Part shown: positions 5,334-24,334 of the stretch, piece after piece | How positions within the stretch are numbered: the stretch's first letter is position 1 | Layout of the letters: each line of letters begins with the position of its first letter | Assembly: GCF_000174435.1 (NCBI RefSeq) | Contig: NZ_ACJN02000002.1 | Coordinates: 434,001-498,000 of the forward strand | Length of the DNA stretch: 64,000 nt | Direction of reading: 5' to 3' | From: Desulfonatronospira thiodismutans ASO3-1 | GTDB lineage: Bacteria; Desulfobacterota; Desulfovibrionia; Desulfovibrionales; Desulfonatronovibrionaceae | Notes under the pieces: generated by a model | Told to the model about the DNA's origin: nothing | Database searches by the model: none | Seen by the model: the letters and a program-made list of their open reading frames with translations, nothing else | Translations under genes and position numbers: made by a program

Positions 5334-5987
5334 TTGCTTCTGACAGAATCTGAAACCTTGATTCCCAAGCACGGCGGCTACCGGAAGCTCAAGAGCTTTC
5401 AACTGGCCCAGCTTGTATATGATCTGACCGTGCGTTTCTGTGGGCGGTATATAGATAAGCGCAGCCGCACTCATGATCAGATGGTTCAGGCCGCCCGCAG
5501 CGGGGTGCAGAACATCGCGGAAGGATCAGAAGTTTCTGCCACATCCAAGAAAATGGAGCTGAAGCTTACCCAGGTAGCCCGGGCCAGTCTTGAAGAACTG
5601 AAGCTGGACTACGAGGACTTCCTGCGTCAGCATGACCTGCCTTGCTGGGACCGAAATCACCCCCTGCGTCAAGATCTGGTTGATGCACAATGCCGAAGCG
5701 TTGATGACGTGGCCGAGTGGGTGATGAATGCGGCTAAAAAAATAGCCTGGGAGAGAGGACACAGTGAACAAAGTAGACTTGGGGAATCAGACAAGGATAT
5801 TGAGTCTTCTACGTTTACTGCGTCCTCTTTTTATCCTGAAATCTCGGCCAATGCAGCTCTGACACTGGCCACTGTAGCCGGTTATCTCCTGGACCGGCAG
5901 ATCCAGGCCCTGGCTGAGTCCTTTGAAAAAGAAGGCGGGTTTACAGAACGACTGTACAGTGTGCGTACCGCCAGAAGACGAAAATAA
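5334..5987 (+). CDS. Four-helix-bundle protein with C-terminal suffix domain
   Basis: A 217-residue protein. Residues about 15-95 form an S23/IVP-type four-helix bundle (KLKSFQLAQLVYDLTVRFCGRYI, MVQAARSGVQNIAEGSE, then two helices). The C-terminal half (ISANAALTLATVAGYLLDRQIQALAESFEKEGGFTERL) matches the suffix domain of four-helix-bundle proteins. The biochemical role is unknown; members occur beside restriction systems. The start is uncertain: TTG at 5334 has GGAG only one base away, and a TTG at 5355 is possible. After the stop the same frame continues for 26 more protein-like codons, so the gene may be interrupted. Confidence 0.7.
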   Translation: MLLTESETLIPKHGGYRKLKSFQLAQLVYDLTVRFCGRYIDKRSRTHDQMVQAARSGVQNIAEGSEVSATSKKMELKLTQVARASLEELKLDYEDFLRQHDLPCWDRNHPLRQDLVDAQCRSVDDVAEWVMNAAKKIAWERGHSEQSRLGESDKDIESSTFTASSFYPEISANAALTLATVAGYLLDRQIQALAESFEKEGGFTERLYSVRTARRRK

Positions 5988-6316: not shown

Positions 6317-6633
6317 CGGTCCGTGTCATGGTGTTTGTCGACCGGGTGGAAATCGTCAGCCCCGGCCACCTGCCGGACAGCCTGAGTCCGGAGGATATCC
6401 GCCAGGGCAAGACCATCCGCCGCAACCCCACACTCACCGAGCACGCCAGTCATATCCTGCCGTATCGTGGCATGGGCAGCGGCATTCCCCGTGCCCTGGA
6501 AGCCTGGCCGCAGATCGACTTGGTGGATGATCCCGCGGGCAACCAGTTCAGCGCCGTGGTCTGGCGTGCAGAAGCGGAATGGTCGGTTGACACTGCCGCC
6601 CCGCAAGTTACGGGGAAGTTACCGGGGAAGTGA
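6317..6633 (+). pseudogene. Internal AlbA_2/RecG-like fragment, duplicated from 16.9 kb
   Basis: Almost identical to 16907-17250 inside the intact AlbA_2 gene, with few base changes. It keeps VMVFVDRVEIVSPGHLPDSL and MGSGIPRALEAWPQIDLVDD. The N-terminal two thirds are absent. Near 6609 one C is missing and two of the four 12-bp GTTACCGGGGAA repeats are gone, so the frame is broken and ends at 6633. The homology then jumps over about 315 bp of the other copy. It is a recent duplicate and not functional. Confidence 0.85.
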
Positions 6634-6636
6634 AAC

Positions 6637-6770
6637 GGTTGTCGCTACCTGGGCGACTGGCATCAGCGGGAGAATAACCGGCCTTGCAGCCGATGCCGCG
6701 ACCGCTGCGCATCTCTGGCGCGGCTGAGTATGCTCGTTCGGCAGTAGCAGAATTTATGTGAGAGGTGATT
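6637..6770 (+). pseudogene. HsdR-like N-terminal fragment plus antitoxin leader
   Basis: The frame reads RYLGDWHQRENNRP before losing sense. YLGDW.xREN is typical of the N-terminus of some type I restriction R subunits. It corresponds to 17565-17672 downstream of the intact AlbA_2 gene. The later part carries the AGAGGTGATTT leader that drives the antitoxin at 6772. Confidence 0.55.
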
Positions 6771-6771
6771 T

Positions 6772-6996
6772 ATGAAGATTAAAGACCTGATTGAAGCGGC
6801 AGAGGCTCTCCCAGTGGAAGAGCGTGCGTTAGTAGTCGATTCGCTTCTGCGCAGTCTCAACCCTCCCCAATCCAGGATCGATGAAAAATGGGTTTCGGTA
6901 GCGCAGGAGCGATTGAAGGAGTTTCGTTCCGGTGATGTGGAGACCGTCCCCGGAGAAGAGGTGTTTGCGAAAATCTGGGGCGAGCAATCTCCATGA
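6772..6996 (+). CDS. Addiction module antitoxin (TIGR02574-like)
   Basis: A 74-residue antitoxin. Residues 1-30 (MKIKDLIEAAEALPVEERAL, then VVDSLLRSLN) form the helical pattern of the putative addiction module component family, which pairs with ParE/RelE toxins. The acidic tail ends GEEVFAKIWGEQSP. A GAGAGGTGATTT site stands before the ATG. The stop overlaps the toxin ATG by 4 bases (ATGA). A truncated second copy with nearly the same first 54 residues lies at 17674. It should bind and neutralise the downstream toxin and may autoregulate. Confidence 0.85.
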   Translation: MKIKDLIEAAEALPVEERALVVDSLLRSLNPPQSRIDEKWVSVAQERLKEFRSGDVETVPGEEVFAKIWGEQSP

Positions 6997-7382: not shown

Positions 7383-9743
7383 ATGGAAAACGGACAACTG
7401 AACTGGATCGCCAACTTCATCTGGAATATCGCCGACGATGTGTTGCGCGATGTTTATGTGCGGGGTAAGTACCGCGACGTGATCCTGCCCATGACGGTCA
7501 TCCGCCGTCTTGACGCCTGCCTGGAGCCCACCAAGCAGGACGTCCTGAAGATGAGCGAGCAGCTGGACAAGGCGGGCGTGGCCAATAAGGTCGGCGCTCT
7601 ATCAAGGGCTGCCGGTGCGGACGCCAACCACGCCTTCTACAACGATTCGCCCTTTACCCTCCGCGATCTCCAGTCACGGGGAAAAGCGCAGCAACTCAAG
7701 GCCGATTTCGAGACCTACCTCGACGGCTTCAGCCCGAATGTCCAGGAGATTCTGGAGAAGTTCAAGTTCCGCAACCAGATACCCACGCTGGTCGATGCCG
7801 ACGCCCTCGGCCCGCTCATCGAGAAGTTCCTCAACCCGGATATCAACCTCTGCCCGCACCCGGTCCGCGACGTCGAGGGCAACGTCCGCCTGCCCGGCCT
7901 GGACAACCACGCCATGGGCACGATTTTCGAGGAACTGATCCGCCGCTTTAACGAGGAGAACAACGAGGAAGCGGGTGAGCACTTCACGCCCCGCGACGTC
8001 GTCAAGCTGATGGCCAACCTGATCTTCTGGCCCATCGCGGATGACATCCGGTCGGCCACCTATCGCGTCTATGACGGCGCGTGCGGCACCGGCGGCATGC
8101 TGACCGTCGCCGAGGACACCCTCCAAGGGCTTGCCTCCAGCCGAGGGAAGAACGTCTCCATCCATCTGTTCGGTCAGGAGGTCAACCCCGAGACCTACGC
8201 CATCAGCAAGGCCGACCTGCTGCTCAAGGGCGAAGGCCAGGGCGCGGAGAACATGAAGTTCGGCTCGACGCTCTCCCGTGACGCCTTCCCCTCCGGCGAG
8301 TTCGACTTCATGCTCTCCAATCCGCCCTACGGCAAGAGCTGGAAGATGGACCTCGACCGCATGGGCGGCAAGAAGGACATGTCCGACCATCGCTTCGTGG
8401 TCCAGCACGACGGCGACGAGTTGTCGCTCATCACCCGTTCCAGTGACGGCCAGCTCCTGTTTCTCGTCAACAAGCTGACCAAGATGGTCGAACCCACCGA
8501 GCGCAGTCCGCTGGGCAGCCGCATTGCCGAAGTCCACAACGGCTCGTCCCTGTTCACCGGAGACGCGGGCTCGGGCGAGTCCAACATCCGCCGTTGGATA
8601 ATCGAGAACGACTGGCTGGAAGCCATCATCGCGTTGCCGCTGAACATGTTCTACAATACCGGCATTGCCACCTATATCTGGGTGCTGACCAATGCCAAGC
8701 CCGAGGAGCGCAAGGGCAAGGTCCAGCTTATCGACGCCACCGACATCTACCAGCCCCTGCGCAAGAACATGGGTGCGAAGAACTGCGAGCTGTCCGAGGA
8801 GCAGATCAAGCAGATATGCGAGATGTTCCTCGCCTTCGAGGAAACCGAGCAGTCGAAGATCTTCCCCAATGCCGCCTTCGGATACTGGAAGATTCGTGTT
8901 GAACGTCCGCTGCGCCTGCACAGTCAACTGACCCGCAAGGCAATCCAGGGTCTGCGCTACGCCTCCGGCGACGAGGACATCCGCCAGGCCCTGCACGAAG
9001 AGTTCGGCGACACCATCTTTGAGAACTTCTCGTCCGTGCGCAAGCAGGTCGAGCAGACCCTCCACGACTGGGGCGGCAATGGAGATGAGGACTCCGACGG
9101 AGATGAAGACAGTGACACGCCCAAGCGAACAGTCATCCCGGAGAAGAAGCGCAAGAAGCTGCTCAAAGCCGACACCTGGAAGCGGGACAAAAAGCTCTAC
9201 GATGCAGCCCGCGCTCTGCGGGATGAACTTGGCGAGGATGTGTTCACCAACCACAACATCTTCCGTGACGCCGTGGCCGATGGGCTGAAGAAGCTGGGCA
9301 TCAAGCTGTCTGCCGGTGAGCAGAAGATTATCTTCAACGCTATGAGTTGGCGCGTTGAGGATGCGCCCCCGGTCATCAAGAAGGCCCACAAGCCGGGCAA
9401 GGCCGAAGTCGACCCGCTCCACGGATTGTATGCCAACCCTGAAGGCGACCCCGGGCTGGTTCTGGAATACGAACCAGACAGCGAACTGCGCGACAGCGAG
9501 CAGGTTCCGTTACTGGAAGAAGGTGGCATCGAGGCGTTCTTCCGCCGCGAGGTCCTGCCCCATGTCCCAGGGGCCTGGATCGACGAGTCGGCCACGAAGA
9601 TTGGCTACGAGATTTCCTTCACCCGCCACTTCTACAAGCCGCCGGAGCTGCGGCCGCTGGAAGAGATCAAGGTCGACCTGCTCGCCCTGCAGGAAGAAGG
9701 CGAAGGCCTGCTTGAAGAAATTGTCGGGGGGCAGAAGGCATGA
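7383..9743 (+). CDS. hsdM: Type I restriction-modification, methyltransferase subunit HsdM
   Basis: N6-adenine methyltransferase subunit that works with HsdS and supplies host protection. The N-terminal helical HsdM_N domain begins QLNWIANFIWNIADDVLRDV. The SAM-binding motif I is DGACGTGGM (about residues 230-238) and the catalytic motif IV is NPPYGKSW (about 313-320). At 786 residues it is longer than the usual 500-550, with a charged Asp/Glu/Lys-rich linker near 560-590 and a C-terminal extension. The stop overlaps hsdS by 4 bases. The region is clearly richer in G+C and GC-ending codons than the core genes, which suggests transfer. Confidence 0.96.
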   Translation: MENGQLNWIANFIWNIADDVLRDVYVRGKYRDVILPMTVIRRLDACLEPTKQDVLKMSEQLDKAGVANKVGALSRAAGADANHAFYNDSPFTLRDLQSRGKAQQLKADFETYLDGFSPNVQEILEKFKFRNQIPTLVDADALGPLIEKFLNPDINLCPHPVRDVEGNVRLPGLDNHAMGTIFEELIRRFNEENNEEAGEHFTPRDVVKLMANLIFWPIADDIRSATYRVYDGACGTGGMLTVAEDTLQGLASSRGKNVSIHLFGQEVNPETYAISKADLLLKGEGQGAENMKFGSTLSRDAFPSGEFDFMLSNPPYGKSWKMDLDRMGGKKDMSDHRFVVQHDGDELSLITRSSDGQLLFLVNKLTKMVEPTERSPLGSRIAEVHNGSSLFTGDAGSGESNIRRWIIENDWLEAIIALPLNMFYNTGIATYIWVLTNAKPEERKGKVQLIDATDIYQPLRKNMGAKNCELSEEQIKQICEMFLAFEETEQSKIFPNAAFGYWKIRVERPLRLHSQLTRKAIQGLRYASGDEDIRQALHEEFGDTIFENFSSVRKQVEQTLHDWGGNGDEDSDGDEDSDTPKRTVIPEKKRKKLLKADTWKRDKKLYDAARALRDELGEDVFTNHNIFRDAVADGLKKLGIKLSAGEQKIIFNAMSWRVEDAPPVIKKAHKPGKAEVDPLHGLYANPEGDPGLVLEYEPDSELRDSEQVPLLEEGGIEAFFRREVLPHVPGAWIDESATKIGYEISFTRHFYKPPELRPLEEIKVDLLALQEEGEGLLEEIVGGQKA

Positions 9744-11122
9744 TTGATGAATTGAAGCCATACGCCGAATACAAGGACAGCGGCCTGCCTTGGGCAAGCA
9801 AGATTCCCACGCATTGGAAGGTCAGACGCGCCAAGAACCTCTTTCGTTGCATCGACGTCAGGTCGAAGACCGGCACCGAGGAGAGATTGACCGTATCCGC
9901 AGAGCGCGGAGTGGTGCCCCGCAGTTCGATGAAGGTGACCATGTTCGAGGCCAAGTCGTACATCGGACATAAGCGCTGCTGGCCCGACGATTTGGTCATC
10001 AACAGCCTTTGGGCATGGGGACGCGGGCTTGGCGTGGCGAGGCACCACGGCCTTGTAAGCAGCGCATACGGGGTTTACCGGCTGAGACCAGAGTTTGACG
10101 AGTATGCTCCCTTCATCCACCACCTTGTTCGATCAAAGGTGTATCACTGGGAGCTCCGCACACGATCCAAAGGCGTGTGGATTTCTCGTCTTCAGTTGAC
10201 TGACGACGCTTTCCTGAGAGCACCAATCCTGGTGCCGTCGGTCGAGGAAGGTAAGGCCATCACGCGCTTTATCCGTGACATCGACCGCAAGGTCAATGCG
10301 TTCATCCGAAATCGGCGGCGGCTGATCAAGGTGTTGAACGAGCAGAAGCAGGCCATTATCAATCGCGCCGTGACTCGTGGCCTCGACCCCAACGTGCCCC
10401 TCAAACCCTCCGGCGTCGACTGGCTTGGCAATATCCCAAAGCACTGGGAGAAAAATCGGCTGAAGTTCCTGGTTCGTAACGTAAACGAGCAGACGTCGAC
10501 GCGGCAACCTGACGAAGTCTACGTTGCACTTGAACATGTCGAGGGGTGGACAGGGCGAATTACGCTGCCGAGCGAAGACATTGAATTTGGCAGTCAAGTA
10601 AAACGGTTCCATGTGGGTGACGTGCTCTTCGGCAAGCTACGCCCGTACTTGGCGAAGGTTACTCGCCCCAGCGTGAAGGGAGTCTGTGTCGGGGAGTTCC
10701 TTGTCTTGCGCCGCAAGAACGAGGCTCTGCTTCCAGAGTTTCTTGAACAAGAACTGCGATCTAAGCTGTTTATCGACATCATCAACAGCGCAACATTCGG
10801 GGCGAAGATGCCCCGGGCCGATTGGGACTTCATCGGAAATCTCTTGATCGTCTACCCACCGACGCATGCTGAACAATTGGAGATCCTATCAGACACCGGT
10901 AAGCAAACAGCCTCACTTCAGGCGGCTATCGATAAAGCCAATCGAGAAGTCAGCCTCATCCAAGAGTATCGCACCCGCCTGATCGCCGACGTGGTCACCG
11001 GCAAGGTGGACGTCAGAAATGTGAAGTGTGAAGGGAGAAGTGTGAATGAAGAAGAATTTGAAGATATTGAGGAGGTAGAAAAAGCGGTCGACTTGCTGGA
11101 GGAATCTGAAGATGACAAATAA
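9740..11122 (+). CDS. hsdS: Type I restriction-modification, specificity subunit HsdS
   Basis: DNA-recognition subunit of the type I complex, 460 residues. It has the two-fold layout: target recognition domain 1 begins YKDSGLPWASKIPTHWKVRR (about 11-30), a conserved helical spacer follows (ITRFIRDIDRKVNAFIRNRR to LNEQKQAIINRAVTRGLD), and domain 2 begins GVDWLGNIPKHWEKNRLKFL. The second spacer ends EYRTRLIADVVTGKVDV. The last 35 residues are an unusual acidic tail whose first part is encoded by one arm of a 32-bp inverted repeat. It overlaps hsdM by 4 and the next gene by 11 bases. Confidence 0.95.
   Translation: MIDELKPYAEYKDSGLPWASKIPTHWKVRRAKNLFRCIDVRSKTGTEERLTVSAERGVVPRSSMKVTMFEAKSYIGHKRCWPDDLVINSLWAWGRGLGVARHHGLVSSAYGVYRLRPEFDEYAPFIHHLVRSKVYHWELRTRSKGVWISRLQLTDDAFLRAPILVPSVEEGKAITRFIRDIDRKVNAFIRNRRRLIKVLNEQKQAIINRAVTRGLDPNVPLKPSGVDWLGNIPKHWEKNRLKFLVRNVNEQTSTRQPDEVYVALEHVEGWTGRITLPSEDIEFGSQVKRFHVGDVLFGKLRPYLAKVTRPSVKGVCVGEFLVLRRKNEALLPEFLEQELRSKLFIDIINSATFGAKMPRADWDFIGNLLIVYPPTHAEQLEILSDTGKQTASLQAAIDKANREVSLIQEYRTRLIADVVTGKVDVRNVKCEGRSVNEEEFEDIEEVEKAVDLLEESEDDK
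11016..11047. repeat. Left arm of 32-bp inverted repeat around four-helix-bundle gene
   Basis: Its reverse complement matches 11489-11520 at 28 of 32 bases. The core is TGAAGTGTGA. The arm lies inside the 3' end of hsdS and is read in frame. Confidence 0.8.
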
Positions 11123-11483
11123 GCGTCCGCCAGAAATTACAGAACGCGCTTTTCAATTCGCGATACGGATTGTCACATTGTGTCAGCACCTGGACGAAAA
11201 GCCGGGCGTGTCCAGAACGCTGGCAAAACAACTGCTGCGTGCAGGAACTTCCATCGGCGCCATTCTCGAGGAAGGCAGAGGCTCTCAGTCCGAAGCGGAT
11301 TATCTAACCAAATGCTCCATTGCGTGTAAGGAAGCACGGGAAACCCTGTATTGGTTGAAATTGCTCGCCGCGTCAGAAATGCTGCCGGCAAACCGCCTCT
11401 CGGCAATGACAAAGGAATGTGATGAACTTGTAGCCATCTTGACTACTATAGCCAAACGGCTCAAGGAGAAACGGAATGGCTGA
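11112..11483 (+). CDS. Four-helix-bundle protein (S23/IVP family) within the restriction operon
   Basis: A 123-residue protein of the 23S-rRNA intervening-sequence protein family. Four helices are recognisable, with the motif VSRTLAKQLLRAGTSIGAIL and EEGRG..SEADYLTKCSIACKEARETLYWL. It starts at ATG 11112, overlapping hsdS by 11 bases, and its end overlaps the DUF1016 gene by 8. Relatives are encoded in intervening sequences of 23S rRNA genes and as the Avd protein of diversity-generating retroelements; here there is neither rRNA nor a reverse transcriptase. The 32-bp inverted repeats around it suggest it arrived as a small cassette. Its role in restriction is unknown. Confidence 0.88.
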   Translation: MTNKRPPEITERAFQFAIRIVTLCQHLDEKPGVSRTLAKQLLRAGTSIGAILEEGRGSQSEADYLTKCSIACKEARETLYWLKLLAASEMLPANRLSAMTKECDELVAILTTIAKRLKEKRNG

Positions 11484-12513
11484 ACAAAATTCACCCTTCA
11501 CCCCTCACACTTCAAATTTCTACCCCGACCTGCTGGCGGAGATCAAGGAACGTGTCCGCGCCGCCCAGTACGAGGCCCTCAAGGCAGTCAACACTGAGTT
11601 GGTCGGGCTGTATTGGGATATCGGGCGGATGATCGTGGAGCGGCAGGCGGACGCCAAGCACGGTTCGGCCATCGCGGATCAGCTATCCAAGGATCTTCGG
11701 GCCGAATTCCCGGGGATTGGCGGGTTTTCCCGTCGCAACATCTTCTATATGCGGGAGTTCTACCTGCTGTACCGTGACGACGAGCGAGTGCAACCACTGG
11801 TTGCACAAATCGGCTGGACCCACAATCTAGCCATTCTCCAACGTTGCAAGGACCCCCTGAAGCGCGAATTCTACCTTCGCATGACCCGCAAGTTCGGCTG
11901 GTCCAAGAACGTGCTCATTCATCAGATCGAGAACCAGAGTTACGAGAAATCGCTGCTGGGGCAGACCAATTTCGACCAGGCGCTGACGCCGGAATTGCGC
12001 GCACAGGCCAAATTGGCGGTGAAGGACGAGTACACTTTTGATTTTCTGGAGCTGGGCGAGGAGCACAGCGAACGTGAGTTGGAGCGGGCGCTGATTGGCC
12101 GCATCGAGGGTTTCCTTCGGGCCATGGGCGGCATGTTCGCCTTTATGGGCAGCCAGTACCGCCTGAACGTTGACGGCGAAGAATACTTAATCGATTTACT
12201 GCTGTTCCACCGCCGCTTGCGCTGTCTGGTCGCAATTGATCTGAAGATCGGCAAATTCAAGCCGGAGTACGTCGGCAAGATGCAGTTCTACCTGACCGCC
12301 CTGGACAAGCAGGTACGCCAGGAAGACGAAAATCCTGCCATCGGCATCATTCTATGCAAGGAGAAGAATCGCACGGTTGTCGAATATGCCTTGCACGACG
12401 CCCGAAAACCGATCGGTGTGGCGACCTATGAAATCACCAGGACATTGCCGCAATCGCTGGAAGGCGAACTGCCGTCGCCGGAGGACATCGCTCAATTGCT
12501 GGAGGATCTCTGA
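11476..12513 (+). CDS. DUF1016/YhcG-type PD-(D/E)XK nuclease
   Basis: A 345-residue protein of the YhcG/DUF1016 family. The N-terminal domain holds NTELVGLYWDIGRMIVERQ, FSRRNIFYMREFYLLY and WTHNLAILQRCKDP. The C-terminal nuclease domain (about 200-335) has YLIDLLLFHRRLRCLVAIDL followed by KIGKFKPEYVGKMQFYL, giving the D...DxK active-site pattern near residues 240-257. Such nucleases often accompany type I restriction operons and are proposed to act in DNA cleavage or repair. The first 15 residues (NSPFTPHTSNF) are encoded by the right arm of the inverted repeat. The gene ends in TGATG with hsdR. Confidence 0.92.
   Translation: MAEQNSPFTPHTSNFYPDLLAEIKERVRAAQYEALKAVNTELVGLYWDIGRMIVERQADAKHGSAIADQLSKDLRAEFPGIGGFSRRNIFYMREFYLLYRDDERVQPLVAQIGWTHNLAILQRCKDPLKREFYLRMTRKFGWSKNVLIHQIENQSYEKSLLGQTNFDQALTPELRAQAKLAVKDEYTFDFLELGEEHSERELERALIGRIEGFLRAMGGMFAFMGSQYRLNVDGEEYLIDLLLFHRRLRCLVAIDLKIGKFKPEYVGKMQFYLTALDKQVRQEDENPAIGIILCKEKNRTVVEYALHDARKPIGVATYEITRTLPQSLEGELPSPEDIAQLLEDL
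11489..11520. repeat. Right arm of 32-bp inverted repeat around four-helix-bundle gene
   Basis: Partner of 11016-11047. It lies in the first codons of the DUF1016 gene, directly after the four-helix-bundle stop, and is read in frame. Confidence 0.8.
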
Positions 12514-15500
12514 TGCCGACCGATACAAGCGAAAAAGGGCTGGAAACACTGATTGTCGAGTCGCTCGTCAACGAGGCGGGCTACGTCCAGGGCAGCAACG
12601 ATGACTACAGCCGCGAGCATGTCATGGACCTGGCGAAGCTGCGCGAGTTTCTGGAGGCTACGCAGCCTGAAACGGTCGAAACCCTGGCCCTGGATCAGGA
12701 CTGCCCCAAGCGGACGCAGTTTCTGCATCGCCTGGACGCGGAGATCGCCAAGCGAGGCGTCATCGACGTGCTGCGCAAAGGCGTCAAGCATGGGCCGGTA
12801 AGCCTGGACCTGTTCTACGGCACGCCTACGCCGGGCAACACCAAGGCGGCCCAGTTGCACGCGGCCAATATCTTCAGCGCGACGCGGCAGCTTCGCTACA
12901 GCCAGGACGAGACACAGCTCGCCCTGGATCTGGGCATCTTCATCAACGGTCTGCCGGTGGCGACGTTCGAGTTGAAGAACTCGCTGACCAAGCAGACAGT
13001 CAACGACGCGGTGCGGCAATACAAGCGGGACCGCAGCCCGAATGAGCCGCTGTTCAAGTTCGGCCGCTGCATGGTGCATTTCGCGGTGGACGACAACGAG
13101 GTGCAAATGTGCACCCACCTCAAGGGCAAGGACTCGTGGTTCCTGCCGTTTAACCAGGGCTGGAACGACGGAGCCGGGAACCCGCCCAACCCTGACGGGC
13201 TCAAGACCGACTACCTCTGGAAGCGGATTCTCACCAAGCTAGGCCTGACCGACATCCTGGAAAACTACGCCGAGATCGTCGAGGAGAAGGACGAGCGCGG
13301 ACGAAAGAAGCATCCGAAGCAGATATTTCCCCGCTATCACCAGCTTGACGCGGTCCGCAAATTGCTGGCCGATGCTGCCGTCAAGGGTGCGGGTGAGAAG
13401 TACCTCATCCAGCACTCGGCGGGCAGCGGCAAGAGTAACTCCATCGCCTGGCTGGCCCACCAGTTGATCAGCCTGGAAGATGGCCTGCCTGCCGAAGCCT
13501 CTGCCTGTGCAGCTGGCACGGCAGTCAGGTCGGCGCAGGCAGGCGGCAGGTCTGTCTTCGATTCCGTCGTGGTCATTACGGACCGGCGGGTGCTGGACAA
13601 GCAGATTCGCAACACGATCAGGCAGTTCGCCCAGGTGTCGTCGGTGGTCGGGGCGGTGACGGGAGAATCCGGGAGCAAAACGCAGCAGCTCAGCGGATTC
13701 CTGAAGGCGGGGAAGAAGATCATCATATCGACGGTGCAGACGTTCCCGTTCATCCTGGATGCGATCGGGGACGAACATCGCGGGAAGCGGTTTGCTATCA
13801 TCATCGACGAGGCCCATTCCAGCCAGGGCGGGAAGACCTCGGCGAAGATGCACATGGCGCTTGAAGATCTTGGTGAATACAAAACATCCTGGGAAGAGCT
13901 TGATGCTGAAGACAAGATCAACAGGATCATGGAGTCGCGGAAGATGCTGGCCAACGCCAGCTACTTCGCCTTCACAGCCACGCCCAAGAACAAGACGCTG
14001 GAGATCTTCGGGATTCCGGGCAAGCCGGTGGACGGTAAGGTTCCCTACCGGCCTTTCCACAGCTACACGATGAAGCAGGCGATCCAGGAGGGGTTCATCC
14101 TGGACGTTCTGGCGCACTACACGCCCGTCAACACTTGGAGTCGTCTGGCCAAGGAAGTGGAAGACGACCCCGAATTCGACACGAAGAAGGCACTGAAGAA
14201 GCTGCGGCGTTACGTCGAGTCGCACGATCACGCCATCCGGACGAAGGCCGAGATCATGGTGGTCCACTTCCACGAGCAAGTGGTTGCCCGGAGGAAGATC
14301 GGCGGCCGGGCACGGGCTATGATCATCTGCAGCAGCATCAAGCGGGCGATCCAGTACTACGAGGCCGTCTCGGCCTACCTCAGGGAGCGCAAGAGCCCGT
14401 ACCACGCCATAGTGGCGTTCTCCGACTTCGAGCAGGACGGCAAGAAGATCACCGAGGCATCCCTGAACGGGTTCCCGAGCAGCAAGATAGAGGAGTACTT
14501 CAAGGCGGGCGAGATCAAGGACATCTCGGGCAAAGACCCGTATCGCTTCCTGATCGTGGCCGACAAGTTCCAGACCGGTTACGACGAGCCGCTTCTGCAC
14601 ACGATGTATGTGGACAAGGTGCTCTCCGGCATCAAAGCGGTGCAGACGCTATCGCGGCTGAACCGGGCGCACCCGCAGAAAACCGACACGTTCGTGCTGG
14701 ACTTCATGAACGACGCCGACACAATCAAGGCTGCGTTCTCAGATTACTACCGCACGACGGTGCTCAGCGAAGAGACCGATCCCAACAAGCTGCACGACCT
14801 GAAGGCGGCCCTGGATGGCTATCAGGTGTATTCCTATGAGCAGGTCGACCAGTTGGTCCGACTGTTCCTCGACGGCGAAGACCGGGACAACCTGGACCCG
14901 ATTCTGGACGTATGCGTGGGCGTCTACAACGACGAGCTGGACGAAGATGGGCAGGTGGACTTCAAGGGCAAGGCGAAGGCGTTCACGCGCACGTACCAGT
15001 TCCTGGCGTCGGTGCTGCCCTATACCAATGCCGAGTGGGAGAAGTTGTCCATCTTCCTGAACTTCCTGATTCCCAAGCTCCCGGCACCCGTCGAGCAGGA
15101 CCTGTCCAAAGGCATCCTCGAAGCCATCGATATGGACAGCTACCGCGCCGAGGTTAAGCAGATGATGCAGCTCGCGCTTCCGGATGAAGACGCTGAGATC
15201 GGGCCCGTCCCAACGAGTGGCGGCGGACGAAAGCCGGAGCCCGAGCTGGACGCACTGAGCAATATTCTCAAGGCATTCAACGATCGGTTCGGCAACATCG
15301 AGTGGGAAGATGCGGATCGCATCCGCAAGGTGATTACCGAAGATATACCGGCCAAGGTGAAGGAAGATCAGGCGTACCAGAACGCTATGAAGAACAGCAG
15401 CAAATCGGCGGCGCGGCTGGAGCACGACAGGGCACTTGAGAAGGTGGTCATCGAGATGCTGTCCGACCATACGGAGTTGTTCAAGCAGTTCAGCGACAAC

Positions 15501-15563
15501 CCCGGCTTCAAGAAGTGGCTGGCGGACACGATCTTCGGGGTGACCTATGATGAGACTGTATAG
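12513..15563 (+). CDS. hsdR: Type I restriction-modification, endonuclease/translocase subunit HsdR
   Basis: Motor and nuclease subunit, 1016 residues, which translocates DNA with ATP and cleaves unmodified DNA. The N-terminal nuclease core is LDLGIFINGLPVATFELKN (about 137-155). The helicase has Walker A SAGSGKSNS (about 302-310), DEAH (about 431-434), FTATP (about 486) and ADKFQTGYDEPLL (about 683). Residues about 324-346 (PAEASACAAGTAVRSAQAGG) are an Ala/Gly-rich insertion encoded by a palindromic DNA segment, placed between Walker A and VFDSVVVITDRRVLD. The frame remains open, so the protein may be active. It starts at ATG 12513, sharing one base with the preceding stop. Confidence 0.95.
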   Translation: MPTDTSEKGLETLIVESLVNEAGYVQGSNDDYSREHVMDLAKLREFLEATQPETVETLALDQDCPKRTQFLHRLDAEIAKRGVIDVLRKGVKHGPVSLDLFYGTPTPGNTKAAQLHAANIFSATRQLRYSQDETQLALDLGIFINGLPVATFELKNSLTKQTVNDAVRQYKRDRSPNEPLFKFGRCMVHFAVDDNEVQMCTHLKGKDSWFLPFNQGWNDGAGNPPNPDGLKTDYLWKRILTKLGLTDILENYAEIVEEKDERGRKKHPKQIFPRYHQLDAVRKLLADAAVKGAGEKYLIQHSAGSGKSNSIAWLAHQLISLEDGLPAEASACAAGTAVRSAQAGGRSVFDSVVVITDRRVLDKQIRNTIRQFAQVSSVVGAVTGESGSKTQQLSGFLKAGKKIIISTVQTFPFILDAIGDEHRGKRFAIIIDEAHSSQGGKTSAKMHMALEDLGEYKTSWEELDAEDKINRIMESRKMLANASYFAFTATPKNKTLEIFGIPGKPVDGKVPYRPFHSYTMKQAIQEGFILDVLAHYTPVNTWSRLAKEVEDDPEFDTKKALKKLRRYVESHDHAIRTKAEIMVVHFHEQVVARRKIGGRARAMIICSSIKRAIQYYEAVSAYLRERKSPYHAIVAFSDFEQDGKKITEASLNGFPSSKIEEYFKAGEIKDISGKDPYRFLIVADKFQTGYDEPLLHTMYVDKVLSGIKAVQTLSRLNRAHPQKTDTFVLDFMNDADTIKAAFSDYYRTTVLSEETDPNKLHDLKAALDGYQVYSYEQVDQLVRLFLDGEDRDNLDPILDVCVGVYNDELDEDGQVDFKGKAKAFTRTYQFLASVLPYTNAEWEKLSIFLNFLIPKLPAPVEQDLSKGILEAIDMDSYRAEVKQMMQLALPDEDAEIGPVPTSGGGRKPEPELDALSNILKAFNDRFGNIEWEDADRIRKVITEDIPAKVKEDQAYQNAMKNSSKSAARLEHDRALEKVVIEMLSDHTELFKQFSDNPGFKKWLADTIFGVTYDETV
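13484..13550. repeat. In-frame palindromic insertion inside hsdR
   Basis: The DNA here can fold on itself. CCTGCCG...GCCTGTGC on the left pairs imperfectly with GCGCAGGCAGGCGGCAGG on the right, and an inner hairpin CTGCC(T)GTGC / GGCACGGCAG lies at 13500-13523. It encodes about 22 extra residues with no counterpart that I recall in related HsdR proteins. Frame is kept. Confidence 0.6.
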
Positions 15564-15893: not shown

Positions 15894-16014
15894 AGCGTGT
15901 TCGCTGCGAACGCTACATCCAGAAAATGATCATGGCTTTGCTCTTCAACCTTCGACTAATCGTCAGGGGCGCCGGACTGCAGGACGCAAAGTGTGCGGGG
16001 AGAACGGCACCGAC

Positions 16015-17475
16015 ATGACCCCTTCAGAACTCACCAGCCTCCTCGCCCGCGGCGAAGACAGCCGCCACCAGTTCAAGCGCAATGCAACCAATGCCGACGG
16101 CCTTGCTGCTGAGCTTGCCGCCTTCGCCAACAGTGGTGGGGGCTGGCTGTTTTTGGGCGTGAATGACGATGGCAGTATTGCGGGGCTGAACGCCGCTGAT
16201 ATTCGCCGGTTAAACCAGCTATTGGGCAATTCTGCCTCCCAGCATGTGCGTCCGCCGTTGCACCCGCTGTCTGAGAACGTGCAGACAGACCAGGGCATCG
16301 TCATGGTGGTGGAAGTGCCCGACGGGTTGGCCAAGCCCTACCTGGACAATCAGGGGCGTATCTGGGTCAAGCAGGGTGCGGACAAGCGCCATGTGACCTC
16401 TCGCGAGGAAATGCAACGGATGTTCCAGCGCGCCGCGCTGCTCTACGCCGATGTAGTGCCGGTGGCAGGCACCTCGGTGGAAGATATCGATGACAAGGCA
16501 TTCAGTGCCTACTTTGACCGGCGCTATGGCGCGAGCGGCGAATTTTCCGGCCTGACTCGGGAGCAGCTGTTGCAGAACCTGGGGCTGGGCGATGGTCGGG
16601 AGCTGAATCTGACCGGATTAATGTTGTTTGGCCGCAATCCACAGCGCTGGCGTCCGGCCTTTGAAGTGAAGGCTGTGGCCTTTCCCGGCAAGGTGCTGCA
16701 CGACACCCGCTACCTGGACAGCGAGGACATCAAGGACGCCCTGCTGGAGCAGTTCCGGGGTGCCTTCGCTTTTATCAAGCGCAATCTGCATCATGTGCAG
16801 CGCGGGCGCGGTTTCAACACTCCGGGGGAACTGGAAATCCCCGAAATAGCGCTGGAAGAACTGCTGGTGAACGCCCTGATCCACCGGGACTATTTCACCA
16901 GCGCCTCGGTCCGTGTCATGGTGTTTGTCGACCGGGTGGAAATCGTCAGCCCCGGTCACCTTCCGGACAGCCTGAGTCCGGAGGATATCCGCCAGGGCAA
17001 GACCATCCGCCGCAACCCCACACTCACCGAGCACGCCAGTCATATCCTGCCGTATCGTGGCATGGGCAGCGGCATTCCCCGTGCCCTGGAAGCCTGGCCG
17101 CAGATCGACTTGGTGGATGATCCCGCGGGCAACCAGTTCAGCGCCGTGATCTGGCGTGCAAAAGCGGAATGGTCGGTTGACACTGCCGCCCCGCAAGTTA
17201 CCGGGGAAGTTACCGGGGAAGTTACCGGGGGAGTTACCGGGGAAGTGAAACGGTTAGCCGAAGCCATGCAGGGCGAGATGAAGCGCTCCGAGATACAGGC
17301 GGCCCTGGGATTGAAACATGAAGACCACTTTCGGGAGAGCTATCTGCGGCCCGCCCTGGACGCCGGCGTTATCGAAATGACGATTCCGGACAAACCGCGC
17401 AGCAGCCGCCAGAAATATCGCCTGACAGCCTTGGGCCAGGCGCTGCTGAAGGCCGGACAGGAAAAGAGGGAGTAG
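16015..17475 (+). CDS. AlbA_2/Schlafen-domain ATPase (RecG-like transcriptional regulator family)
   Basis: A 486-residue protein. The N-terminal AlbA_2 (Schlafen-type) domain spans about 8-125 (LLARGEDSRHQFKRN, ELAAFANSGGGWLFLGVND). The GHKL-type ATP-binding domain lies at about 270-400 (LEELLVNALIHRDY and GMGSGIPRAL), followed by a winged-helix end. Start: ATG 16015 is preferred to GTG 15991 because the AlbA_2 fold begins directly after it and a GGGGAG lies 12 bases upstream. Residues about 395-409 repeat G-E-V-T, encoded by four 12-bp units. Members appear in defence islands; the precise function is unknown. A broken duplicate is at 6317. Confidence 0.88.
   Translation: MTPSELTSLLARGEDSRHQFKRNATNADGLAAELAAFANSGGGWLFLGVNDDGSIAGLNAADIRRLNQLLGNSASQHVRPPLHPLSENVQTDQGIVMVVEVPDGLAKPYLDNQGRIWVKQGADKRHVTSREEMQRMFQRAALLYADVVPVAGTSVEDIDDKAFSAYFDRRYGASGEFSGLTREQLLQNLGLGDGRELNLTGLMLFGRNPQRWRPAFEVKAVAFPGKVLHDTRYLDSEDIKDALLEQFRGAFAFIKRNLHHVQRGRGFNTPGELEIPEIALEELLVNALIHRDYFTSASVRVMVFVDRVEIVSPGHLPDSLSPEDIRQGKTIRRNPTLTEHASHILPYRGMGSGIPRALEAWPQIDLVDDPAGNQFSAVIWRAKAEWSVDTAAPQVTGEVTGEVTGGVTGEVKRLAEAMQGEMKRSEIQAALGLKHEDHFRESYLRPALDAGVIEMTIPDKPRSSRQKYRLTALGQALLKAGQEKRE
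17197..17244 (+). repeat. 12-bp tandem repeat, four units, inside AlbA_2 gene
   Basis: Four units of GTTACCGGGGAA (one with GGGGGA), encoding VTGE repeats between the ATPase and the winged helix. The duplicate at 6317-6633 has only two units and a one-base loss, so the repeat number varies. Confidence 0.85.
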
Positions 17476-17478
17476 CGC

Positions 17479-17649
17479 ATGGTGAGCAGAGCCCGCCCCG
17501 AGCGACTGACCCAAAACCGCGTGGTCGACCTGTTCACCCGTTCCGAGGCGGAAGGCGGGCTGGGTTATCGCTACCTGGGCGACTGGCATCAGAGTGAGAG
17601 ACAACCGGCCTTGCAGCCGATGCCGCTGAGCATGCTCGTTCGGCAGTAG
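17479..17649 (+). pseudogene. HsdR-like N-terminal fragment
   Basis: A 56-residue frame from ATG 17479: MVSRARPERLTQNRVVDLFT ... GYRYLGDWHQSERQPALQ, then a stop. The ERxTQNRVVxLF and YRYLGDW motifs are typical of the beginning of a type I restriction R subunit of a different subfamily from the intact hsdR. It follows the AlbA_2 gene by 3 bp, so an operon of AlbA_2 and hsdR genes probably existed here. It is joined directly to the antitoxin leader. Confidence 0.7.
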
Positions 17650-17673
17650 CAGAATTTATGTGAGAGGTGATTT

Positions 17674-17836
17674 ATGAAGATTAAAGACCTGATTGAAGCG
17701 GCAGAGGCTCTCCCAGTGGAAGAGCGTGCGTTAGTAGTCGATTCGCTTCTGCGCAGTCTCAACCCTCCCCAATCCAGGATCGATAAAAAATGGGTTTCGG
17801 TAGCGCAGGAGCGATTGAAGGAGTTTCGTTCCGGTG
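17674..17836 (+). pseudogene. Truncated copy of addiction-module antitoxin
   Basis: The first 54 codons match the intact antitoxin at 6772 with a single residue change (D40K). Homology stops at 17836. The frame then runs into unrelated sequence (VYAVVVASKRLWIYRNLAEW) and through the tRNA terminator to 18057. The acidic tail is lost and no toxin follows. The foreign part has a protein-like start that I cannot identify. Confidence 0.8.
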
Positions 17837-17979
17837 TGTATGCAGTGGTGGTGGCCAGCAAGCGCCTGTGGATCTACCGCAATCTGGCCGAATGGAAGGA
17901 CCTGAATGCCACAGCGGTGGCCCGGTGGAATCAGCAAGCAAAAGCAAGAGTCTACCCCCCAGGGGATATAGATCAAAAA

Positions 17980-18513: not shown

Positions 18514-20004
18514 ATGCGCTTGGGGCTGAAAATCTTTCTACTTCTGTTTGTGGCCGCATTCACCATTTCCGGAGCCACGGGATCCTATTTCTATTATCAG
18601 GCCAGGCAATCCTTGCTGGAATCCATCCAGAGTCAGTTGCTTACTGCGGCCAAATCCTTTTCCGGGCTCATTTCCGGAGATGACCTGGAAGCCCTCAATT
18701 CTCCTGAAGACATGCATTCCAGTGCTTACCCCAGGATCCAGCGTATCCTGCACCAGATTGCTCTGACCAACGAGGACTTCCTATTTGCCTATACCATGCG
18801 CATCCAGGACGATGAGGTCCTGTTCGTGGTGGACTCACCCCCCAGCGATGATACCGGTGACGGCCGGATATCCCCGGACGAAATGCCTGAGCCCGTGGGT
18901 GCTGTTTACCCCGATCCTCCATCATCCCTGCTCAAAGGCTTTGTCCGCCCCAGTGTGGATCAACGTATTTACCAGGACCAATGGGGCTGGACCATATCCG
19001 GGTACGCTCCCATCAAGGACTTTCGGGGACGCAATGTGGGACTTCTGGGCATAGACATGTGTGCTGAACACATGGAGGCCAAGCTGGCCGCCATCAGACA
19101 AGCCGGACTGATCTCCCTTGGCGTGGCCGGACTTCTGGCCCTGGGAGTGACCCTGCTCCTGACCAGACATATTACTGGCCCCATCAAGTCCCTGCACCAG
19201 GGTCTGAGCCGGGTCAGCGCCGGAGACCTTGATGCCGTGGTCCCGGAGCATGGCCGTGACGAACTGGGGGACCTTTCCCGGCACTTCAACCAGATGGTGG
19301 GCGAACTAAGAGAAAAACAGCTTCTACAGTCCAGCCTGGGCAAAGTCATGCCCAGGGAAGTAGTCAGCAGGCTGCTGTCGGATGATCCCAAACTGGGCGG
19401 GGAGACCGCAGAGGCATGCATCCTTTTCTGCGATCTGCGCGGATTTACCAGCATCAGTGAAAAACTGCCGCCAAAGATCCTGGTGGGACTGCTCAACGAC
19501 TACTTTTCCGCCATGGTCCAGGCAGTGGAGAAACAAGGCGGTCTGGTGGACAAATTTATCGGGGACAAACTTATGGCCGTCTTCGGTCACCCGATAACTG
19601 ATGAAAAGGCAGAAGCCAAAGCCCTGCAGGCCGGTGTAGACATGCTCTCGGCCTGCGACCGCCTGAACTCCACCCTGGCCCTGACCTCGGATCTGATCCT
19701 GGAAAACAGCATAGGCATTCATACCGGTCATGTCCTGGCGGGCAACATCGGTTCACCTCAGCGAATGGAATACACTGTGGTCGGTGATGCTGTGAATATC
19801 GCCGCCAGGCTGGAGGCAAAAACCCGTGAAATGCACACCAGGTTGATCATAAGCTCCCATGTCGCCGCAAAAATCTCTCCGTTGCCCGGGCAGCTGCGTT
19901 CTCAGAAAAATATCAGCCTGGAGGGCAGACGGGAAACTCTGGACATCTACCTGCTGGAGAACAGTGACCCGGTGGGCACACGAGGCAGGGATAGTGAGTT
20001 ATAA
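18514..20004 (+). CDS. Membrane-bound class III adenylate/guanylate cyclase with HAMP domain
   Basis: A receptor-type cyclase of 496 residues. The start is placed at ATG 18514, 6 bases after GGAGGC, which begins MRLGLKIFLLLFVAAF, a membrane segment; a start at 18358 would add 52 implausible residues. The order is TM1 (about 4-25), an extracytoplasmic sensor of about 170 residues, TM2 (about 197-220), HAMP (HITGPIKSLHQGLSRVSAGD) and a catalytic domain from about 285. The metal-binding residues sit in FCDLRGFTSISE and DKFIGDKLMAVFG, and the C-terminal half has VVGDAVNIAARLE. It probably makes cAMP in response to an external signal. Confidence 0.9.
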   Translation: MRLGLKIFLLLFVAAFTISGATGSYFYYQARQSLLESIQSQLLTAAKSFSGLISGDDLEALNSPEDMHSSAYPRIQRILHQIALTNEDFLFAYTMRIQDDEVLFVVDSPPSDDTGDGRISPDEMPEPVGAVYPDPPSSLLKGFVRPSVDQRIYQDQWGWTISGYAPIKDFRGRNVGLLGIDMCAEHMEAKLAAIRQAGLISLGVAGLLALGVTLLLTRHITGPIKSLHQGLSRVSAGDLDAVVPEHGRDELGDLSRHFNQMVGELREKQLLQSSLGKVMPREVVSRLLSDDPKLGGETAEACILFCDLRGFTSISEKLPPKILVGLLNDYFSAMVQAVEKQGGLVDKFIGDKLMAVFGHPITDEKAEAKALQAGVDMLSACDRLNSTLALTSDLILENSIGIHTGHVLAGNIGSPQRMEYTVVGDAVNIAARLEAKTREMHTRLIISSHVAAKISPLPGQLRSQKNISLEGRRETLDIYLLENSDPVGTRGRDSEL

Positions 20005-20044
20005 GAGTTCAGAGGTCAGAGATCAGAAGTCAGAGGGCAGAGGA

Positions 20045-20114
20045 CAGTAAAAACAAAGTGTTATATAGATCATTGATTCCTAACTTATTCATTTTCCGAC
20101 TTTTTGCAGGTACA
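20045..20114 (+). repeat. Dispersed intergenic repeat, copy 2
   Basis: Matches 289-370: CAGTAAAAACAAAG, a TTATAT block, and CGACTTTTTGCAG near the end. Here the palindrome found at 205-284 is absent from the upstream side. Confidence 0.5.
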
Positions 20115-24203: not shown

Positions 24204-24334
24204 GTCCTGTATCCTTTTTTGTAGCCATTCAATGCAAAATTCTACTGCTGCGTACTCGCATACATTCTTCCCCATGCCCTATGCCCAATACGCTTTGCCC
24301 CATGCCCCATGCGCCACGCGCCACGCGCCACGCC

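Follow-up and report, generated by a model that had tools for sequence, protein, structure and literature searches.

Bacteria very commonly carry genes annotated as 'four helix bundle protein' (4HB), to which, to our knowledge, no function has been assigned. The window analyzed here, a stretch of 64,000 nucleotides from Desulfonatronospira thiodismutans ASO3-1, carries such a gene within a type I restriction operon, closely framed by two inverted repeats. What is this gene doing between two restriction genes, and do the repeats belong to the operon, to its transcript, or to the gene itself?

All genes of the operon are read from the forward strand, in the order hsdM (7383-9743; PF02384, PF12161), hsdS, encoding the specificity subunit (9740-11122), the 4HB gene (11112-11483), the gene for a DUF1016/YhcG PDDEXK nuclease (11476-12513; PF17761, PF06250), and hsdR (12513-15563; PF04313, PF18766). 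The 4HB protein, 123 amino acids long, belongs to the family of proteins encoded in 23S rRNA intervening sequences (23S rRNA IVP or S23p), as a sequence-only reading of the locus had proposed. It matches PF05635 (E = 8e-21) and TIGR02436 (E = 1.6e-27) and has a relative of solved structure (PDB 2rld, E = 4e-19). Family matches of the enclosed gene are to 23S_rRNA_IVP only, with none to the HUH tyrosine transposase typical of REPIN/RAYT systems. Outside the whole hsd operon lie two pairs of direct repeats, each 98% identical (6317-6631 and 16907-17222, 316 bp; 6720-6938 and 17622-17839, 219 bp). Both are partial copies of a gene (15991-17475) and of the sequence after it, as if the hsd restriction island had been inserted through recombination between duplicated ends.

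The inverted repeat spans 11015-11047 on the forward strand and 11489-11521 on the reverse strand. Its arms are 33 nt long, are complementary at 29 of 33 positions (88%), and are separated by 441 nt; it is the same repeat that had been reported as matching at 28 of 32 bases between 11016-11047 and 11489-11520. The local alignment of one flank with the other scores 23.0, above the maximum of 13.0 reached in 100 shuffles (mean 8.1), and this excludes a chance origin. The repeat is not one single 32-bp sequence. The left arm consists of about four degenerate copies of a heptad (GAAATGT GAAGTGT GAAGGGA GAAGTGT), of which the right arm is the inverse, and the period-7 score is 14 in both arms. The HsdS and DUF1016 reading frames do run into the arms: the left arm is read within the HsdS tail as NVKCEGRSVNE, and the right arm as SPFTPHTSNF at the head of the DUF1016 protein. 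Between the left arm and the 4HB start codon, the segment 11048-11111 (forward strand) encodes the acidic end of HsdS, EEFEDIEEVEKAVDLLEESEDD. The predicted fold of a 516-nt RNA pairs the two arms, as the sequence-only reading had expected for the mRNA, with z = -3.06 against dinucleotide shuffles.

This arrangement proved to be the rule for the family. A scan of GTDB genomes yielded 80 4HB loci from many phyla. The scan was built on the closer of two alignments (A2); the diverse one (A1) had no stretch that was conserved enough. Arms of different loci were not pooled into a covariance model because their units differ. A period-7 segment is found at most 300 nt away in 87% of the upstream and 95% of the downstream flanks of these 80 loci, vs. 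5.5% of 731 control stretches, and none of the other periods between 4 and 13 rises comparably above background. In a second sample, made up of 30 loci from the phylum of the window, period 7 occurs in 70-73% and period 8 in about 20%. With the flanks of DUF1016 genes taken as a control family, a period-7 score of at least 10 is seen in only one of 29 upstream regions. The repeat period is usually 7, and 6, 8, or 9 in some loci. Of 143 loci, 109 have inverted arms, and for 15 a direct arrangement is better; the arms lie close to the gene, at median distances of 20 nt ahead of the start codon and 14 nt past the stop codon. 4HB genes are themselves frequent, being present in 107 of the 197 genomes sampled from the phylum of the window.

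Within the genome of D. thiodismutans, most short 4HB genes have inverted arms, with a different unit each time: CAGGAGA (L001), GCGGGAA (L003), a CATACGCC-type octamer (L004), and GTTAATT (L005), while octamer arrays flank both sides of a further gene (L002). Relatives of the '4helix_suffix' kind depart from this picture. Four of them in the same genome (L007-L010) have no inverted arms, most of their flanks being devoid of heptad arms altogether, and the second 4HB protein of the window, encoded at 5334-5987 (TIGR04258), is of this kind and also lacks such arms. '4helix_suffix' proteins may thus be a subfamily that left the element lifestyle.

If gene and arms form a cassette, related sites should exist from which both are missing. 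The cassette idea was to fall if operons devoid of the 4HB gene still carried both arms; three such hsdS-DUF1016 operons (L206, L207, L214) have neither. In these operons HsdS and DUF1016 overlap directly, the left arm is absent from the HsdS homologues at the same position, and the DUF1016 homologues, 81-87% identical, lack the arm peptide. The window locus thus has inverted short-period arrays hugging the gene, together with empty sites that have neither arms nor gene. Similar pairs are found elsewhere. The trpD-trpC junction of Tenacibaculum is filled in some species and clean in others (L196), with intermediates in which the gene is broken (L197, L199) or in which a hairpin stands without a gene (L191). 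On Nostoc plasmids of 86-88% identity, arms and gene (about 480 bp) separate two genes in one plasmid (L318) that are only 12-13 bp apart in two others (L368, L369); this one filled site carries a candidate target duplication of 9 bp, imperfect (TACTAAG[TC]A), the only case seen of a feature that, at fixed length, would mark a classical insertion sequence or MITE. Filled and empty sites therefore differ by the whole element, in agreement with the earlier proposal of a cassette tolerated by donating in-frame tails. The junction at the window locus is less simple in one respect. The 64 nt between the left arm and the 4HB start differ in both length and sequence from the corresponding segment of the closest relative (L327), and the acidic tail that they encode resembles the native tails of HsdS proteins from operons devoid of 4HB (L214). 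The segment may be either a native HsdS tail or a newly recruited one. Since a native tail may thus lie inside the element, a simple one-step insertion is not a sufficient account.

Repeat unit, period, and protein are coupled. Across 135 loci, protein identity correlates with unit similarity (Mantel r = 0.60; none of 500 permutations). An antisense control correlates as well, which indicates that base composition contributes, but the correlation is weaker, and the lag is largest at high identity (0.52 vs. 0.67). Mapped onto the protein tree, the period changes 8 times vs. 12.8 times in shuffles (0 of 300), and one octamer, CAAGGGTT, is common to three proteins from three families (L120, L127, L129). 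The coupling holds across genomic sites: among protein pairs that are at least 70% identical, 83% have no neighbor gene in common, and their unit similarity is 0.63 vs. a background of 0.41. L327, which is encoded in a different genome and is 71% identical to the window protein, is its closest relative and also has the unit GAAGTGT. There, the 4HB gene again follows hsdS, with hsdR directly behind, and the arm peptide xxFTPHTSxF, which heads DUF1016 in the window, heads HsdR. The peptide is therefore part of the element and not of the host protein. As far as these sequence comparisons go, gene and arms shift between sites as a unit.

The genes on either side of a 4HB gene tend to run in its direction: both neighbors are co-directional in 102 of 125 cases, vs. 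39% of ordinary gene triplets. The sites themselves are diverse. Some elements lie within core metabolic operons (between trpD and trpC, between cobW and cobN, among acyl-CoA genes, near cobU; L036, L039, L069, L112, L055, L105), and these supply in-frame ends to the adjoining proteins. Two 4HB elements of one genome (L145 and L146 of G278), with arms GAGGACTGAGGACTGAGT, sit within an apparent CRISPR array (repeat GTCGCAATCCCTTCGTAATCAGG...) and have been amplified in tandem with the apparent CRISPR repeats. Defense operons are a recurrent site; on plasmids of Planktothrix agardhii (L317, L372), an element with CCCCAAT/GTAAATC heptads lies between drmD of a DISARM system and a gene for an MmeI/PglX-like methyltransferase.

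Arrays are not confined to the neighborhood of 4HB genes. We counted 42 arrays of period 7 and 40 of period 8 in 0.86 Mb of the D. thiodismutans genome; the remaining periods between 4 and 13 yield at most 11 each. For the 69 arrays that have no 4HB gene nearby, a match to the arms of one of the genome's own 4HB genes exists in 81% of cases; when six foreign 4HB loci are drawn at random instead, the mean is 5%, and none of 500 draws reaches 81%. Replication in other genomes gave a divided result. Dispersed arrays match the arms of the examined 4HB genes in 6 of 6 cases in G135 and 2 of 4 in G278, and in none of 16 in G118 and none of 6 in G271. Four sampled genomes with 4HB genes have 4-16 arrays per 100 kb; of four without, three have 0-1 and one has 4, mostly T-rich tracts. 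Further samples gave 3 arrays in 40 kb (G158) and 3 in 60 kb (G213), and none was found in the sampled parts of G187, G237, and G184, the first two of which do have 4HB genes. As for the unit of the window, no other site of the GAAGTGT type was found in its own genome when as many as 2 mismatches in 17 nt were allowed, whereas the units of four other 4HB genes in this genome do have gene-less copies. A gene-less GAAGTGT hairpin is present in the other genome, where it takes up 75 bp, in frame, of the hsdR of L327; HsdR homologues of 71-73% identity do not have it. Exactly at the position of that hairpin, the HsdR of the window is extended by a loop insertion (about 20 residues, at about 13472-13558, within DGLPAEASACAAGTAVRSAQAGGRSV). 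This insertion has no heptad structure and was rejected as a second element hairpin. Two heptad arrays of the window, at 20004-20047 and 24270-24333 (of CAGAGGT and CCCCATG types), have no adjoining 4HB gene.

This anatomy has a published precedent. In the 428-nt intervening sequence (IVS) of the Coxiella burnetii 23S rRNA, three or four heptameric repeats precede the S23p start codon and the termini form a stem of 28 bp; RNase III cleaves the IVS in vitro, and the authors did not generalize the anatomy (PMC4990558). Like the window element, it combines an S23p-family gene, complementary stem-forming termini, and heptameric repeats beside the open reading frame in about 430-500 nt that lie in sense orientation in the host transcript. 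The two differ in site, helix 45 of 23S rRNA vs. a protein-coding operon, where the window element lies between hsdS and DUF1016 and not in a 23S rRNA helix. They also differ in unit (GACAGAT vs. GAAGTGT), and the RNase III cleavage seen for the Coxiella IVS is no more than a possibility for the window element. A conserved 23S probe found no 23S rRNA intervening sequence among the sampled loci, so that this comparison rests on the literature. REPIN/RAYT systems (PMC3116915), too, have a gene with inverted short repeats of its own on either side, and gene-less inverted doublets of that repeat are dispersed in the genome. However, 4HB elements lack their HUH tyrosine transposase, and the 4HB unit is a degenerate, locus-specific tandem repeat of 6-9 bp instead of a fixed palindrome. 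Finally, heptamer satellites have been published for Calothrix (STRR), Xanthomonas (GGGAATC), and Nostoc (GGGGA[CT]T) (PMC4692102), as well as for Beggiatoaceae (TAACTGA) (PMC4679880). They are over-represented, their origin is unexplained, and they are not linked to 4HB genes in these papers (PMC4692102, PMC4679880). By their descriptions they resemble the arrays studied here, as tandem 7-bp units in bacterial intergenic DNA that are sometimes inverted. CCCCAAT-type units flank the 4HB gene of the Planktothrix plasmids, and Xanthomonas campestris has a 4HB protein, XCC0516 (PDB 2gsc), which forms a toroidal pentamer (PMC4990558). In a search of the literature outside subscription papers and preprints, the Coxiella IVS paper was the only one found to link 4HB genes with heptads.

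Three other explanations have to be weighed. The segment could act at the RNA level, as an intervening sequence whose stem is excised from host transcripts by RNase III, selection on RNA pairing keeping the arms complementary. The strong sense-orientation bias, the pairing of the window arms in the predicted fold, and the cleavage of the Coxiella IVS in vitro (PMC4990558) agree with this. However, copies of a given unit are present in the DNA on either strand and in the absence of the gene, and the G-U mismatches that RNA would tolerate are not commoner in the arms than A-C mismatches (109 vs. 117; 71 vs. 76 in another count), so that there is no sign of selection for sense-RNA pairing. We regard this explanation as unlikely.

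Still less probable is that the heptad arrays are independent genomic satellites into which 4HB genes merely insert, or beside which they persist. That many arrays are remote from 4HB genes, and that those of G118 and G271 are unlike the examined 4HB arms, would fit such a view, but a gene entering an existing array would split it into two direct halves, and the arms around the gene are inverted. Moreover, unit and period track the protein phylogeny across genomes and sites, and the arrays are absent from empty sites. It is equally hard to see the 4HB gene as a domesticated member of the operon that regulates or assists the restriction system, with the inverted repeat as a local regulatory hairpin, and we give this idea the least credence. 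The gene is intact and co-directional in the window, and 4HB genes are found in defense operons there, in L327, and at the Planktothrix DISARM locus; yet genes of this family, with the same anatomy, are also found on plasmids, within an apparent CRISPR array, and in operons of the trp, cobalamin, and acyl-CoA kinds, and homologous hsd operons do without the gene.

We therefore favor, with a probability of roughly 0.72, the reading that small mobile elements made of arms and a 4HB gene, together with their gene-less copies, form a widespread family, and that the window segment is one of its members. Against it stand the undispersed unit of the window, the unmatched arrays of G118 and G271, the lack of arrays in G187 and G237, the 64 nt behind the left arm of the window, and the single, imperfect target duplication; we also know of no catalytic site in 4HB proteins. 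The sequence-only reading thus holds as far as a cassette in protein-coding operons is concerned, and the arm peptide, being shared by different host proteins, bears it out; it had missed the heptad arrays and the family-wide pattern.

In this mobile family, an element would consist of a gene for a pentamer-forming 4HB protein placed inside inverted arrays of an element-specific tandem unit, gene and arms traveling and evolving together. Inverted arms would also persist as gene-less hairpins dispersed in the genome. Elements would insert into co-transcribed genes or at the junctions between genes, in the sense direction, and one so oriented in a host operon would be transcribed from host promoters. 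Where heptad arms overlap coding ends, they would be translated as harmless in-frame tails. The 4HB protein may bind the hairpin of its own unit and help host enzymes to copy or insert it. The stem may be cut in the mRNA by RNase III, and it is possible that such RNA-level processing makes insertions harmless. In 23S rRNA genes, the classical intervening sequence would be the same kind of element.

The presence of heptad arms as a rule around 4HB genes points to a widespread and overlooked kind of mobile element, of which rRNA intervening sequences are one case. A broader proposal, which we advance tentatively and hold at somewhat less than even odds, is that of a new class of mobile elements in which a pentameric 4HB protein that is not a transposase writes and spreads the repeats, setting their unit and period; this class would be the source of many unexplained heptanucleotide satellites of bacteria and would include rRNA intervening sequences as a special case. 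Through their element-specific inverted heptad arrays, the common 4HB genes become a testable class of mobile elements. Odd in-frame protein tails such as xxFTPHTSHF would find their explanation, and rRNA intervening sequences would share an origin with at least some of the unexplained heptamer satellites of cyanobacteria, xanthomonads, and Beggiatoaceae.
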